From a virus, in IMG/VR virus record IMGVR_UViG_3300032214_001248, positions 1 through 59,796 of that record: a DNA stretch of 59,796 nt; one strand, given 5' to 3'. The notes below the pieces were generated by a model. It was not told the origin of the DNA, searched no databases, and was given only the letters and a program-made list of their open reading frames with translations. A program made the translations under genes and the position numbers. This document shows positions 35,660-42,663 of the stretch, one piece after another. The stretch's first letter is position 1, and each line of letters begins with the position of its first letter.

Positions 35660-38446
35660 TTAACCCTGCATATATGCATGATCACGCCAAGAACTTGAAG
35701 ATGGCATTGTAGGTGATGAAATAACTGATTGTTGTGGAGCAGGGACAGGAACCATAACAACTTCCGGTTCTGATTGCTCTACAATAACTTCTGCAGCAGA
35801 ACCAAGTTCATAATAAGCATAATTTCTCAAAACATTAATAGCTCCATCATAATTTGCTTTGTTTAATGCATCTAAAAATCCAGGGAAGTTTTGCTCTAAT
35901 GCTGATGTAGTGTCAGTATCAAGAACAAACTCAATACCTCTTTCACCAAGAATCGCACGAGTAAATCCTCTAACGAGACCACCTCTACCATAAGCAACGT
36001 GAACATGATTATCATGACCTGGATAACCGTCTTTTAATAATTGAATGGGTTTTACACCCTTCATTCTATTAAATTCTGCAATACCGGCAAGAATTTGTTC
36101 TTGATCACCATATCCACGACTTCTTCCATAACCACCAATATCAATTGCTCTAGATCCTTTAGAAGCATAATGGAGTGATCCAGGACTATGACCACTTTCA
36201 GGTGACCATGGCCTATGTTCTGGGTGTTGATGGACCCCTGATCCCCATCTCCCCAAACCCTTTGCATCTAAAAATCTTCCAAGTTCTCCAGCAAGTTTTG
36301 ACCCCCTTCTTGCATCAGAATTATTTGATAATTGTGTGTAACTTCCGCCAGTTGCTCCCACATCAGAAGATGGAACATAACTACCATACTTTGCAAGAAT
36401 ATCATTTGCATATTTCATTCTATTTTCAAATCCGGGCATTCCTGGTTTTTCCCCAGACCTTTCAAATCTTTCTAACCAAATTGCAGATGCATCTCTTGCA
36501 CTTGATGCCTTTTTAATTTCTCTCCAATCTCCTCTTTGTTCTGCTTCCCATTTTAATCCCACCAATTGTCCTTCTAAAGTATTTGGGTCTTTCCCAATAG
36601 AACTAATATAAGCAGAAACTCTTGGCCATCTATGTTGCTTATCCCATTGTGCTATTCCATGGTGACTGCCATTATCAGCTTTTGGATCAAATCCACTTTC
36701 TTGTTGCAAATTCCCAGCAATACCTGCTGCTTGTGCTCCAGTTAAACCTTGAGATATTAAATAGTGCATTGATTTTTCTGCACCAGTTGAACCAGAAAAA
36801 TCTTCAGGACCTTCAACTCCCATTTGACCAGAAGAAGAAACTTTTTCCTTTTCCTCCCCCACAATCGCATTTAATCCCAACTGTTTCATCAAATCGTTTA
36901 AAACATTACCAACTCTCGAAGAAACAGTCTCCTCTACTGATTTTGATATCACTTTAGTTAAATCTTCACCTCTCATAAACATTTCAGAATTTACCTCGCC
37001 ACCACCAGCAAATGCTCCACCAGTTCTCAATACCTCACTACTAAAAGTATTTCCCATCCAAGAGTTTAATCCCTTTCCAACATTTTCATAGTCAAGTGAA
37101 GATGGTTTATCACCTAAGAGTGTTTTTATTGCCAACCCAAAAATTGGTCCAAAGAAAGGAATATCGCCCGTCTTATCATAGAAATTTTTGGCATATCCCA
37201 AAGGATTCATCGTATCACTTTTAGATGACTCTGGAAACATTTTTTCTATTTCTTTGCCACCACCAACATCAGCACCTGGCTTTAATTTTGGCGGAGTAAT
37301 GCTTACTTCACGTTTTACTTTGGGTTTTTTAACTTCTCTTTTTGCAGGTCCACCAACAACCCTCCCACCCCTTGTAATAATTCCACCTTGAGCACGACCT
37401 TGAACTTTTTGTTGCTCCTGCTCTTTTTTTCCAAAGAAAATATCATAAAGTTTTCCACCAGCCCAATCACCAGCAAATCCACCCAGAATAGCTCCTATTG
37501 GTCCACCAAAACCAGTACCAATAGTACCAAGTATACCTGCACCTATTGCTTTGAATGCTGCCCTACCTAGTGGTTCTCCCAAAGCAATTGACAAACCAAA
37601 ATCAAGTAACCCCCCAATAATAGGAAGTCTTTTAGTAAATGGTCTTATAAACTTTAATATCGTTTTAGCACCACCTCTTCCAAATAATTTTGCTGCTAGT
37701 CTAGTAGCACCTCTAGATAATCCTCTTCTCCCAACTTTTGAAGGTGATGGTTTCTGACCCCTTTTAATATCTGGTCCAAAATCATCACCACCCAAATCAC
37801 CAAAAGCAAGTATAGCAATAATACTTGCTTCAATAACTTTACCCATTGCACCAACAAATCCATCAAAAACTTTGGTGAAATTATCTCCACCAAGATTTTT
37901 TAGAAGTGCTTTAGTGGAATCATATGCTTTATATCCCCAATCAACAAAAGTTACAAGACCGTTTAATAATTTTCCACCCCAATCAGTAACAAAATCAAGT
38001 GCTTGTCCCGCTAACTTTACAACTCCCATTAACTTAGGAAGTTGTGGTAATAATCTAACAACTACAAACCCAAGTAAAATATTAAATAAAAACTTCTTAA
38101 TTCTATCAAGAAAACTTAATTTTGGTACTCCAGGAAGTTTAATCTTTTTATCCTCTTCCTTCTCTGGTTTTGCTTCTAACTTTTCTTCTTTTTCAGTAAA
38201 CTTTTTTTGTTCTGCAAGTTTCCTTTTTTTAGCCTCTTCTGCTTGCTTTAATAATGTATTAGTCTTTACTAAATCATTAATCTTAATAACCTGCCTCTTT
38301 ATAATTCCAAGATTTCTATTAGAAAAAGAGTCATCTCCACTCGATAAAGATTTAACACTAATTTTTTTAGTGATAGCAGAAATGCCAGAACTTGGTAAAA
38401 GTTTTGCTGGATTTATTTTTACTGGAGGTAGTGATTTAGGTTCCAT
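35660..38446 (-). CDS. Tail protein with tail-lysozyme and M15-like peptidase domains
   Basis: 928 residues. An N-terminal coiled coil (about 50-110, Lys/Glu-rich) is followed by a hydrophobic helix (LFNILLGFVVVRLLPQL, about 112-128) and a glycine-rich hydrophobic part (about 295-335, GAGILGTIGTGFGGPIGAIL). Residues about 550-690 form a phage tail lysozyme: YLISQGLTGAQAAGIAGNLQ, QESGFDP (probable catalytic Glu), NGSHHGIAQWDKQHRWP. Residues about 720-825 look like an M15-type zinc peptidase: SPGSLHYASKGSRAIDIGG and GHDNHVHVAYG supply His, Asp and His. The C-terminus is polar. It probably opens the cyanobacterial cell wall during DNA entry, combining glycan and peptide cleavage. Confidence 0.8.
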   Translation of the reverse strand: MEPKSLPPVKINPAKLLPSSGISAITKKISVKSLSSGDDSFSNRNLGIIKRQVIKINDLVKTNTLLKQAEEAKKRKLAEQKKFTEKEEKLEAKPEKEEDKKIKLPGVPKLSFLDRIKKFLFNILLGFVVVRLLPQLPKLMGVVKLAGQALDFVTDWGGKLLNGLVTFVDWGYKAYDSTKALLKNLGGDNFTKVFDGFVGAMGKVIEASIIAILAFGDLGGDDFGPDIKRGQKPSPSKVGRRGLSRGATRLAAKLFGRGGAKTILKFIRPFTKRLPIIGGLLDFGLSIALGEPLGRAAFKAIGAGILGTIGTGFGGPIGAILGGFAGDWAGGKLYDIFFGKKEQEQQKVQGRAQGGIITRGGRVVGGPAKREVKKPKVKREVSITPPKLKPGADVGGGKEIEKMFPESSKSDTMNPLGYAKNFYDKTGDIPFFGPIFGLAIKTLLGDKPSSLDYENVGKGLNSWMGNTFSSEVLRTGGAFAGGGEVNSEMFMRGEDLTKVISKSVEETVSSRVGNVLNDLMKQLGLNAIVGEEKEKVSSSGQMGVEGPEDFSGSTGAEKSMHYLISQGLTGAQAAGIAGNLQQESGFDPKADNGSHHGIAQWDKQHRWPRVSAYISSIGKDPNTLEGQLVGLKWEAEQRGDWREIKKASSARDASAIWLERFERSGEKPGMPGFENRMKYANDILAKYGSYVPSSDVGATGGSYTQLSNNSDARRGSKLAGELGRFLDAKGLGRWGSGVHQHPEHRPWSPESGHSPGSLHYASKGSRAIDIGGYGRSRGYGDQEQILAGIAEFNRMKGVKPIQLLKDGYPGHDNHVHVAYGRGGLVRGFTRAILGERGIEFVLDTDTTSALEQNFPGFLDALNKANYDGAINVLRNYAYYELGSAAEVIVEQSEPEVVMVPVPAPQQSVISSPTMPSSSSWRDHAYMQG

Positions 38447-38449
38447 TTA

Positions 38450-40882
38450 TTAAAAGATTCCTAAAATTTTCTTACTTCTTGGTGCATTACTAGATGGACA
38501 AGTTGCCCCAAAGTTTGGAGTTCTTGGTCTCCCTCCAGATGATTTTGTTACTCCACCCTTTCCACTTCCAATTGGTTTTGTTCTAACAACAACAGGTTGT
38601 CTTGATGGTGGATCCAATTGTTTTGTTTTTGGTTTAGTTGGTGATATCCTAGCAGCATTTGCTTTTGATGCTAATTGAAGTTCTTGTCCCCTATAACCAG
38701 ATCCAAGTCCACCCATCCCACCAACACCACGATTCTTGTAATAGTTTCTTTCCTGAGATCTATGCGAATCTTGTATTATAGAATTTTTCTTAGCAACTAC
38801 AGACTGTTTTGATTTTGAATCATTTATCGCCTTCTTATATAAGTTTGCACCCAACATCTTTTTGATGTTATCTTCAGTCATTCCTTCTTTTCTATACTGC
38901 TCCAAATCAGTAATAGCAGCAAGTCTCATTGAGCGTGCATTTAACGTTTCTTGCCTTGCCCTTGCTCCCCTAGGATCAAAAAGATTTGTAAGTTGCTCTA
39001 AAAATCCATTCTTTCTTTCCGTAGGTCTTGCATATTCCGGTTGACCAGCACGAAATCTAAGATATCCAACAAATGGACCATCTGGACCCATCATTATTTT
39101 AGTTTTTGGTAAACTCTTATTATCTCTCTTTAACCCAAGACCACCAAGAACTCCACCACCTTTTCCTTGATATGACTTATTTCTAGCACCATATTTGTCT
39201 ACCTGTCCAGATAAACCTTTAGTAAAATTGGAAGAATAAATTATATCATTTCCTTTTTGTTGTGCAAAATAACGTTTACCTGCAATAGTAATTTCCGGTT
39301 CAACCATAATATCACCATATCTTGTTCCCTCTTTAACAGCGTCCTTAACTACAATCGAATCCCTACCATTATAAGTTGCTGCATAACCCTTACCAATATC
39401 AAATCCTTGCGTCCCCTTTAGAGATAGACCTCCTGAACTAAGTGCTTTTTGTGAGGCAAGTTGTTTTTCTATTCTCTGAATTCTTTGTTGGACTGATAAA
39501 GCAGCACCGGGAGACCCTCCACGACCACCAACGTTTTCTTCTTTTTTCTGAGTCTTTAATTCTTGTTCATTTTTTCTATAAGAGGAATCGCTAGATTTAT
39601 CTGTACCAACTAATCCTCCACCATAAGCATGTGCTGCTCCATTTATCATTTTGGGTCTATTTGTACCACCACCAGCAGCATTCATTGATTCAAGTGCTCC
39701 TACACCATATTTCTGAACAGCACCACGAGACATAACAAATTCACCATCAGTAAGCATAGCAGGAATCTTGTCAATTCCCTTTTGACCACTTACAAATCCA
39801 GGTCCACCACCAAAAAATCCAAATAGATTTTTGAGTTGTGCTAAACCACCACCAAAATACCCAGGTGTTTTTGGTTCTGATTCTTTTCCAAGATTTTCAA
39901 GTCCTGTAAAATTTTCAATACCACTACTTAAAGCCATAGTGGACCCAACAGTTGCTGCAACTGTCAGACCAGCACTTAATAACTTACCACCTTTTCCCCC
40001 AAGAAATCTAGCAACCCCCTTTGCACCTACAAGTTTAGCAGCAACTTGTACAAGTTTTAAAGTTCCTGCAATTACAAGTTTGGAAAGACCACCAACAAAT
40101 CTACCAAATTGAGTTCCAAATCTAATATAAAGTGCTAAAAGTTTTGGCCAATGATCACCAAAAAATCTAATAATAGACTGAACTTTATCTCTATTATCCT
40201 TATTACCAAACCACTCTAAAAGTAAAACAATAGATCTACCTATAAAAATCGCAGTTATAAAGTCAATAATTCTACTTAATAAAGATTTTACAGGTGCAAT
40301 AATTTTTTCAGCAACTTTTATTGCAGCAGAAAATCCTTTTTCTAATCTAGATTCTGCAAGACCCCTCTTGGCATCTTCCGCTTCTTTTCGCGTTCTTTCA
40401 GCAGAACTCTTTTGAACTTTATTTTGTAGTGTTAAATTTTTTATTATTTCGCCAAGAAGACCTACAATTTCTTTGGTGTCATCTTGACCCTTTATTTCAT
40501 CCGCTGCTGGAGGAAGTGCAAGTGGTCTTATTCCCGTAAGAAGTTTTTTCTTTTTAAGGTTAATACCAACAGCAGTTCCTTTTTTAAAACTTGCCGCTGT
40601 TATTTTCTTTACTTTAAATCTACCCTTTTTACCCTTTACCCTTTTCCACTCATCAGTTATCATTTCAACTTCTTCTGATGCAAGATTTTGCTTTGTCATT
40701 CTTGCAGCAGCCATTCTTTCTCTGAGAAGAGAAGAATATGTGTCATAATCAATATCAAATATATCTTCTAGCCCAAGCAATCTTAATATTCTTTCGTCTA
40801 TTTTTTCATTAATAAGAGCACTCCCATTCTTTGCCTTTGATGGCATTAATGCTGGCAAATTTTTAGAAGAATTGAGTGCCAT
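38450..40882 (-). CDS. Tape-measure/hub-type tail protein
   Basis: 810 residues. It is basic, with hydrophobic segments at about 210-235 (IIDFITAIFIGRSIVLLLEW) and 300-325 (LLSAGLTVAATVGSTMALSSG) and a long helical N-half. The element DKIPAMLTDGEFVMSRGAVQ (about 370-390) is typical of C-terminal regions of phage tape-measure proteins. It directly follows the gp26/small-ORF chaperone pair with a 20-nt overlap, the classic place for the tape measure. T4 gp29 is the functional counterpart, but homology is not proven here. Stop is 3 nt before the lysozyme gene. Confidence 0.65.
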   Translation of the reverse strand: MALNSSKNLPALMPSKAKNGSALINEKIDERILRLLGLEDIFDIDYDTYSSLLRERMAAARMTKQNLASEEVEMITDEWKRVKGKKGRFKVKKITAASFKKGTAVGINLKKKKLLTGIRPLALPPAADEIKGQDDTKEIVGLLGEIIKNLTLQNKVQKSSAERTRKEAEDAKRGLAESRLEKGFSAAIKVAEKIIAPVKSLLSRIIDFITAIFIGRSIVLLLEWFGNKDNRDKVQSIIRFFGDHWPKLLALYIRFGTQFGRFVGGLSKLVIAGTLKLVQVAAKLVGAKGVARFLGGKGGKLLSAGLTVAATVGSTMALSSGIENFTGLENLGKESEPKTPGYFGGGLAQLKNLFGFFGGGPGFVSGQKGIDKIPAMLTDGEFVMSRGAVQKYGVGALESMNAAGGGTNRPKMINGAAHAYGGGLVGTDKSSDSSYRKNEQELKTQKKEENVGGRGGSPGAALSVQQRIQRIEKQLASQKALSSGGLSLKGTQGFDIGKGYAATYNGRDSIVVKDAVKEGTRYGDIMVEPEITIAGKRYFAQQKGNDIIYSSNFTKGLSGQVDKYGARNKSYQGKGGGVLGGLGLKRDNKSLPKTKIMMGPDGPFVGYLRFRAGQPEYARPTERKNGFLEQLTNLFDPRGARARQETLNARSMRLAAITDLEQYRKEGMTEDNIKKMLGANLYKKAINDSKSKQSVVAKKNSIIQDSHRSQERNYYKNRGVGGMGGLGSGYRGQELQLASKANAARISPTKPKTKQLDPPSRQPVVVRTKPIGSGKGGVTKSSGGRPRTPNFGATCPSSNAPRSKKILGIF

Positions 40883-41042
40883 TCGATTGCTGTTGTTTTA
40901 GTTTTTCTTCTTCTAGATGTTGTTGTAGTAAGACAACATAGATGTCTCGTTCCCAAGGCATCATATTTTCAATTTCTGTCAAAGAATATTTATGGTACTG
41001 CATCAAGGCAAAATTAAGACGGAAATAACTTTCCAAATCCAT
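40863..41042 (-). CDS. 51: Small tail chaperone partner (frameshift extension of gp26)
   Basis: ATG at 41042 gives 59 residues; the same frame is open upstream through a GTG at 41048 to the gp26 stop region. It contains FALMQYHKYSLTEIENMMPW and ERDIYVVLLQQHLEEE, a short helical protein. T4 has gp51 in this place between gp26 and the hub genes; size differs (249 aa in T4), so the symbol is positional. The frame joins gp26 by a -1 shift at a T TTT TTC heptamer (41060-41066), so it may be made mostly as a gp26 fusion of 303 residues. It overlaps the tape-measure start by 20 nt. Confidence 0.6.
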   Translation of the reverse strand: MDLESYFRLNFALMQYHKYSLTEIENMMPWERDIYVVLLQQHLEEEKLKQQQSNGTQFF

Positions 41043-41053
41043 ATGCACTAGGG

Positions 41054-41773
41054 CTATGCGAAAAAACTTGCTAACCCTTCTAGAACAACTTCACTTTCAA
41101 CTTTAGTTTTTGGATTTACGACGGTAACCTTATGGGATAGTTTTGGCATGGTCTCAAAGAATTTTTCAATCTCTTTAAATTGTGACGAATTCATTTGCTC
41201 CAGAAAATCACTAAGTTCCTTCTTAGTTACATCAGCAGATGCCCAAACTTCATCTTCAGTATAAATTTTATCAATACATGAAGCAATTAAATCAAAAGAT
41301 TGCTCCATAGCATTCGTATCAGTAAAATCAAAATTATTTTTAATGAATTGATCAAGAGATGGATATTTCATTTCCATCATAATACTCTTATCAACTTTTA
41401 TTTTATTAGTGTGATCTTCATTTTTCTCAACTTTAATATCGTCAAGACTCAACTTAATTGTGGTTGTTGTCTCTTGATCATCGGGGCAAATAACATTAAC
41501 CTCAATATCTTCTCCTACAGATTTGCCCCTGATGTTAAGGAAAAGATATTCAATATCAAAAGTAGGTAAAGATTCTACTTTTATATTTTTTGTTATAACA
41601 CAGTTTTTAATAACATTCTTAATAGCATTAGTAATTTGCTTAGTGTCTTCACTCTCTAAAGCAATCACTAATACTTTTTCTTCCTTAACAAGAAAAGGTC
41701 TGTATTGAATTGTCTGTCCAGTTGAAGGCAACTCAAGTTCATAAGTTGGTGTAGCAATCTTTGGTAAGGGCAT
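41054..41773 (-). CDS. 26: gp26-like baseplate hub assembly protein
   Basis: 239 residues. The N-terminus MPLPKIATPTYELELPSTGQ then YRPFLVKEEKVLVIALES matches T4 gp26-family hub proteins. Middle: LPTFDIEYLFLNIRGKSVGE, which binds neighbouring subunits in relatives. C-terminus: EVVLEGLASFFA then TAG. The last codons contain the slippery heptamer. In siphophage terms it stands where the G protein of the G/GT tail assembly chaperone pair stands, just before the tape measure. Late promoter about 35 nt upstream. Confidence 0.8.
   Translation of the reverse strand: MPLPKIATPTYELELPSTGQTIQYRPFLVKEEKVLVIALESEDTKQITNAIKNVIKNCVITKNIKVESLPTFDIEYLFLNIRGKSVGEDIEVNVICPDDQETTTTIKLSLDDIKVEKNEDHTNKIKVDKSIMMEMKYPSLDQFIKNNFDFTDTNAMEQSFDLIASCIDKIYTEDEVWASADVTKKELSDFLEQMNSSQFKEIEKFFETMPKLSHKVTVVNPKTKVESEVVLEGLASFFA
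41060..41066 (-). other. Candidate -1 ribosomal frameshift site (T TTT TTC)
   Basis: In gp26 frame the minus strand reads AGT TTT TTC GCA TAG, so the heptamer T TTT TTC is in the X XXY YYZ phase. After a -1 slip the codons CGC ATA GCC CTA GTG CAT ATG are open and enter the next gene in its own frame. The site is two codons before the gp26 stop. Confidence 0.7.
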
Positions 41774-41814: not shown

Positions 41815-42663
41815 TTAAGCAATGTTAGAATTTGCACCAACAGTAAATCCAGAAACAGTATTACCAGAACTTAATGCGGAGAGGTCAGGAACTCCACCAA
41901 CATTAAATCCACCTTCTAAAGATTGGTTATAATTTTGTGCCCAATTATATTCATTATTCAGAACAACCTGATTCTCAGAAGATAATGGCGTCTGATCCGC
42001 CACCTTATCATTATTTTTAGAAGATGGAGATAAAATATATCTTACATAAGTCATAGATACAGTACATTTTAATAAAGATGATGAATCATAAGATATTGGC
42101 ATAGAAGAAATTGAAATTGGAAATGCATCAATAAAATCATATGTCAAATTGGAAGCGTAATCTCTTTCAAATTTAACTACTTTTAAAGATCCCTTATAAT
42201 CATTTGGATACCTAACTCTATAGAAATATTGAGAATTTCTACTTCCTACAGGACCTAATAAATTTCCACCCGAATCTCTTTTCTGAGCAATACTCTCATT
42301 TACAATATATTTTATCCAGGTTTCAAAAAATCTAATTGGCATATAATTTTGTGCATCAACGTAAAAAGTTAAATCAATTCTATCATCATAGATTCTTCTA
42401 TAAACATGCCTCTCAGTAACTCCATGAAAATCATTATTAATTTCATGAGTTGCTAAAGAAGACCCGGGTAATGTTGCCTCAGAACATAACAAAGTTAGTG
42501 TTCCAGAGGTTGCTGGGGTATATGCTACGCCATTGTCTTTTAAATAATCTATAAAGTTTCCACTCTTTGTCGGATACCCTACCTCAACTTCAAAATGTGA
42601 AGTAAGTGCTGGTTTAAGAAGTAAATTTGCCTTTATATCAGATAAAGTTTTTGGAGTAGGCAT
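41815..42663 (-). CDS. 54: Tail-tube-fold protein, probable gp54-like tube initiator
   Basis: 282 residues. It contains LLCSEATLPGSSLATHEIN (about 60-78), FHGVTERHVYRRIYDDRIDL and FYVDAQNYMPIRFFETWIKY (95-125), and FIDAFPISISSMPISYDSSS LL (about 190-210), the pattern of gp19/gp54 tail-tube domains. T4 gp54 starts tube growth on the baseplate, together with gp48, which is encoded across the divergent gap here. The final 70 residues are polar and variable. Could instead be a gp19 relative; gp54 is favoured by length and by neighbours gp26 and gp48/gp53. Confidence 0.7.
   Translation of the reverse strand: MPTPKTLSDIKANLLLKPALTSHFEVEVGYPTKSGNFIDYLKDNGVAYTPATSGTLTLLCSEATLPGSSLATHEINNDFHGVTERHVYRRIYDDRIDLTFYVDAQNYMPIRFFETWIKYIVNESIAQKRDSGGNLLGPVGSRNSQYFYRVRYPNDYKGSLKVVKFERDYASNLTYDFIDAFPISISSMPISYDSSSLLKCTVSMTYVRYILSPSSKNNDKVADQTPLSSENQVVLNNEYNWAQNYNQSLEGGFNVGGVPDLSALSSGNTVSGFTVGANSNIA

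Follow-up and report, generated by a model that had tools for sequence, protein, structure and literature searches.

A frameshift in the tail chaperone genes is conserved in long-tailed phages, as in lambda gpG/gpGT (Xu, Hendrix and Duda, 2004; reviewed in PMC5009743), and a 2016 review described this G-T frameshifting as widespread 'except T4' (PMC5009743). That T4-like phages also have tail assembly chaperones (TACs) was reported by Vladimirov, Gautam and Davidson (2022, Virology 566:9-15), as cited in PMC12846349 and PMC10885494; the former (2025) credits these authors with poly-T slip signals in the TAC-N genes of T4-like phages, and the latter with a short gene plus a fused long gene in some of them. 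The stretch of DNA analysed here (59,796 nt, positions 1 to 59,796 of the IMG/VR virus record IMGVR_UViG_3300032214_001248, called the window in the following) belongs to a T4-like marine phage, a cyanophage, and an earlier note had proposed that its gp26 and gp51 are likely joined by a -1 frameshift and would thereby be recast as a chaperone pair of the G/GT type.

All features of the locus lie on the minus strand. The tail tube gene (41815..42663; phrog_45 tail tube, E = 2.3e-36; PF23849) precedes gp26 (41054..41773, 239 aa; PF12322, E = 2.9e-75; phrog_150, E = 1.1e-79), followed by a 59-aa ORF (40863..41042; phrog_634 'baseplate hub assembly catalyst', E = 6.6e-27) and by a probable tape measure gene of 810 aa (38450..40882; phrog tail length tape measure protein, a weak match at 5.5e-5), the start of which overlaps the end of the small ORF, in agreement with the position before the tape measure given in the earlier note. 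With PF12322 in the first protein and phrog_634 and the C-terminus of phrog_150 in the second, the two ORFs belong to the T4 gp26 and gp51 families, whereas an NCBIfam search gave no useful match for either protein. The gene order is tail tube, gp26, gp51, tape measure, and two adjacent or overlapping ORFs located between the genes for tail tube and tape measure are a trait of frameshifted chaperone pairs, with the tape measure as the weak assignment in this row. The tape-measure-like gene is followed by a 928-aa protein (35660-38446) with a tail lysozyme domain (PF18013).

The 3' end of gp26 reads GCA AGT TTT TTC GCA TAG and holds the slippery heptamer T TTT TTC (41060..41066) in the expected phase; its last codon sits one codon ahead of the zero-frame stop TAG (41054..41056), an arrangement that suits simultaneous -1 slippage. 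The slip site of phage lambda is G GGA AAG and thus differs from the T TTT TTC of cyanophage gp26. From the heptamer onward the -1 frame (40863..41059, beginning as RIALVHMDLESYF...; TAC-C, or gp51 in other annotations) is free of stops and its peptide is conserved. It runs as ...SFF-RIALVH-MDLESYF... and continues via the 59-aa ORF, which is the same frame read from its first ATG. The fusion would read FF-RIALVH-MDLESYFRLNFALMQYHKYSLTEIENMMPWERDIYV... up to the stop codon ending at 40863 and comprise 238 + 65 = 303 residues, which agrees with the reading of the frame proposed before.

Conservation of the heptamer among relatives had been set in the earlier note as a point on which the proposal could fail, and the proposal withstood this test. 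For this comparison 218 non-redundant gp26 loci from viral contig scans and annotated phage records were used. A phased T TTT TTN was found at the gp26 3' end in 215/218, within at most eight codons of the stop in 211 of them and somewhat further upstream in four more (L182, L208, L227, L242), and the -1 frame past the gp26 stop was open in all 218. The 215 heptamer-bearing relatives span Kyanoviridae, Emdodecavirus, Menderavirus, Angelvirus and one Straboviridae vibriophage. The exact T TTT TTC occurs at the site in 177 of the 218 genes, and elsewhere in the same genes a phased T TTT TTC is met a single time among 49,895 codon pairs; the heptamer at the gp26 end is not due to chance. It is missing in three loci (L088, L090, L091), which have CTT TTY instead. 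These are vibriophage D510 and two Ackermannviridae, their -1 frame is still open, and they would use another slip site or mechanism. A scan of genome contigs turned up, for the most part, contigs of phage type from bins of marine metagenomes. One metagenome-assembled 'Heimdallarchaeota' chromosome (L366, CP070695.1) contained a fragment of a cyanophage-like gp26 with 66% identity across 148 residues, probably through mis-assembly.

The shifted frame behaves as a coding frame. Whereas the -1 frame is open throughout, a +1 frame without a stop over 45 codons occurs in only 1 of 211 relatives. The -1 residues right after the slip are Arg (163/211), I/V/L (207/211) and a small residue, followed by L/M (207/211), one variable residue and His (183/211), while the zero-frame codon at this place varies between A, G, V, S, E and stop. 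In the alignment, conservation of the -1 peptide already begins at the residue that directly follows the slip, ahead of any start codon. By this pattern the -1 frame is coding from the slip onward and under selection at the protein level. A gp51 block can be recognised in 173 relatives, 40 of which have no ATG, GTG or TTG between the slip and this block (for example S-CAM4, L094; Melnitz-3, L084; and L027). In these phages the conserved gp51 part cannot come from ordinary initiation of its own, so that the fusion is the only ordinary route to it. Because the conserved part lacks a start codon, gp51 has been missed or started late in the public annotations of S-CAM4 and Melnitz-3.

These counts bear directly on whether gp51 might be a separate protein, made from its own ATG by termination and reinitiation after the gp26 stop, with the T run being incidental. 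Databases do annotate gp51 as its own gene, and the window has an ATG 11 nt past the gp26 stop, at a place where Met is found in 74/211 relatives and is common in the clade of the window. Yet the Met is not retained outside this clade, a usable start is missing in the 40/173 relatives mentioned above, conservation of the -1 frame begins at the slip rather than at a start, and the third bases of the heptamer are fixed against codon preference, so that we regard a purely separate gp51 as very improbable. A combination of both routes, with a frameshifted fusion and some free gp51 in addition, overlaps with the reading that we prefer and is unlikely, though less so. Since the ATG is present and conserved across the close clade, extra free gp51 would be possible there; against this, no Shine-Dalgarno sequence precedes that ATG, although the tape measure start has none either, and Met may be merely the residue at that place.

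The third bases also bear on the idea that the needs of the protein, or of some other RNA signal, maintain the two Phe codons and that no slipping occurs. Phe-Phe is indeed nearly invariant in gp26, as this idea would have it. In the 75 closest genes, however, the first Phe codon is TTT in 75/75 and the second TTC in 75/75, with TTC making up about 30% of the Phe codons in these genes, and the preceding codon, which switches mostly between AGT and TCT, has T as its last base in every case. Separate fixation of TTT and TTC, retention of the preceding T through these swaps and the open, conserved -1 frame would all be left unexplained, and we give this idea hardly any credence.

We therefore favour, with a probability of about 0.93, that ribosomes slip by -1 at the end of gp26 and that gp26 and its fusion with gp51 are the short and long forms of a tail assembly chaperone; slippage itself, its rate and the chaperone function are what we infer from the sequences. 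Gp26 would then be the short form (TAC-N). A minority of ribosomes on AGT TTT TTC GCA TAG would step back one base at T TTT TTC, where re-pairing of tRNA-Phe is possible in both sites, would miss the stop, read the overlapping frame and add 65 residues (TAC-C, the 'gp51' domain). By analogy with lambda G and GT, the tape measure protein would be coated by many short and few long copies, which would also recruit the subunits of the tail tube. The G/GT-type assignment made in the earlier note is backed by the gene order, by natural fusions (T4 gp51, and phrog_150, which spans both halves) and, weakly, by the predicted fold. An AlphaFold2 model of gp26 had a mean pLDDT of 87, and Foldseek gave as its most probable PDB matches 2ob9 (probability 0.90), 3fgx (0.51) and 3klu (0.44), with E-values of 0.59-3.1, which are not significant. 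HK97 gp13 (2ob9), 3fgx and YqbN (3klu) are TAC-type structures (PMC9603447). In the ranking of solved structures matched by the gp26 model, the HK97 tail assembly chaperone came second, and it had the highest probability (E = 0.59). As the E-values are not significant, the matches weakly suggest a TAC fold for gp26 and are taken as support rather than proof. The model of the -1 product showed a small helical domain (mean pLDDT 85).

Two candidate stimulators accompany the heptamer in the close relatives. A Shine-Dalgarno-like AGGG (41075..41078 in the window, 8 nt before the heptamer) is found 8-9 nt ahead of it in 75/75 of them. The Gly codon involved is GGG in 18/18 cases after the Glu codon GAA, but in 5/57 after GAG (Fisher p = 3.5e-13, a value not corrected for relatedness). 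AGGG is not kept in some distant relatives. A general anti-Shine-Dalgarno reading of the motif fits incompletely, because AAGGA (GAA GGA), an even better match, never occurs. Downstream, pair counts among relatives indicate a covarying 5-bp hairpin that starts 10 nt after the heptamer (41036..41049), with 83.9% of cells paired and 44 double-changed cells compared with 12.2 in shuffles (0/500); slid versions of the hairpin scored lower. In the window itself the stem is degenerate, with one G-G mismatch. RNAalifold predicted no consensus RNA structure over the 76-sequence alignment and folding of the window region was no better than for shuffles, so a consensus structure was rejected and only the short hairpin is retained from the pair counts. 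Given the mismatched stem, the RNAalifold result and the loss of AGGG in some distant relatives, both elements may be lineage-specific aids at most.

Outside phages, the DUF6760 pair of bacterial contractile injection systems is likely the same frameshifted chaperone. More specifically, we consider it rather probable that eCIS DUF6760 (PF20546) is a TAC-C, joined by -1 frameshifting at a conserved xxG GGG GAR (GGGGGA) or a G run to a small zinc-ribbon, gp26-like TAC-N. Of 67 loci from bacterial genomes of four phyla (L394-L460), 64 (Actinomycetota, Cyanobacteriota, Chloroflexota, Bacteroidota) have DUF6760 in the -1 frame relative to a zinc-ribbon ORF that lies upstream and overlaps it; L433, with an upstream ORF that looks broken by a single-base change, would be the 65th if one base change is allowed. 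Two Bacteroidota loci (L395 and L396) carry the gp26-like part and DUF6760 fused in one ORF, with PF12322 at 2.5e-9 in the N-part and DUF6760 at 1.5e-6 at the C-terminus, together with sheath- and tube-like genes. Such genes were also recognised by eye around the pair in the ORF sequences of longer stretches from one cyanobacterial and one Chloroflexota genome. In 57/64 loci the upstream ORF carries a phased G GGG close to its end, against an expectation of 0.09 per 12 codons; of these 57, 41 read G GGG GAR and 25 lack a start codon able to serve DUF6760 alone. In the cyanobacterial loci L418-L426 the G run is closely followed by GCTACCCC around the upstream stop, so that GGGG...CCCC could pair across the stop.

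Against frameshifting in these systems, G GGG GAR is non-canonical and not of the form X XXY YYZ, and GGGGGA is able to serve as a Shine-Dalgarno sequence ahead of GTG in many actinobacterial loci. Five actinobacterial loci (L408, L410, L411, L413, L414) have no G run and an ATGA/GTGA stop-start overlap between the ORFs, which suggests translational coupling in place of frameshifting. Profile comparison gives weak homology between DUF6760 and the gp51 C-terminal part (E 0.0017, probability 15%), and a Pfam search of the small eCIS upstream proteins gave no direct PF12322 evidence (best 0.079); their link to PF12322 comes from the two fused Bacteroidota proteins and from weak profile matches. 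In a literature search, DUF6760 of contractile injection systems was not the subject of any paper, nor did anything relevant on frameshifting in these systems turn up; this lead looks newer than the cyanophage finding. If it is true, translational frameshifting would belong to the conserved steps by which bacterial protein-injection devices are built, a point of relevance to anyone recoding or re-expressing injection-system operons.

Our own literature searches for a gp26/gp51 frameshift, and for cyanophage frameshifting together with the baseplate hub, found nothing on point. The cyanophage finding is right but, in kind, already published, because Vladimirov et al. (2022), as represented in the papers citing them, identified the T4-like chaperone genes and are credited with the poly-T slip signals; on the same representation, their gp26/gp51 chaperones are the same proteins as those described here. 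The recasting of gp26/gp51 as a chaperone pair, put forward in the earlier note, is therefore supported but not new, with production of the fusion being deduced from sequence. The abstract of the 2022 study reportedly agrees with the citing papers on the T4-like chaperone genes. What is added here is the invariant upstream AGGG and the covarying downstream hairpin in the close clade, which may or may not be contained in that study.

Our results support the view that, in genomes of cyanophages, the labels 'baseplate hub subunit' for gp26 and 'hub assembly catalyst' for gp51 are mistaken and that the two represent one chaperone gene read in two frames. The gp26 and gp51 families are common to T4 and cyanophage. 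T4 gp51 matches PF12322 (3.9e-52) and reaches position 280 of 282 in phrog_150, the last 40 positions of which match the small ORF of the window; judged from these profiles, T4 gp51 is a paralogue of gp26 to which the C-terminal domain is joined. T4 genes 26 and 51 are divergently oriented neighbours on opposite strands (L081:7803-9229). A T-rich slip site is also described for the chaperone locus of phage Adele (Vandenendeviridae/Andersonviridae), with a -1 shift at GTTTTT into an open downstream frame (PMC12846349), although the virus families differ from cyanophage and the motif is shorter. T4, the classic model, would then have found a different solution, with a second gene in place of frameshifting: gene 26 supplies the short form and gene 51 the long one with no need for a frameshift, where the relatives compared here carry a single gene with a slip site.
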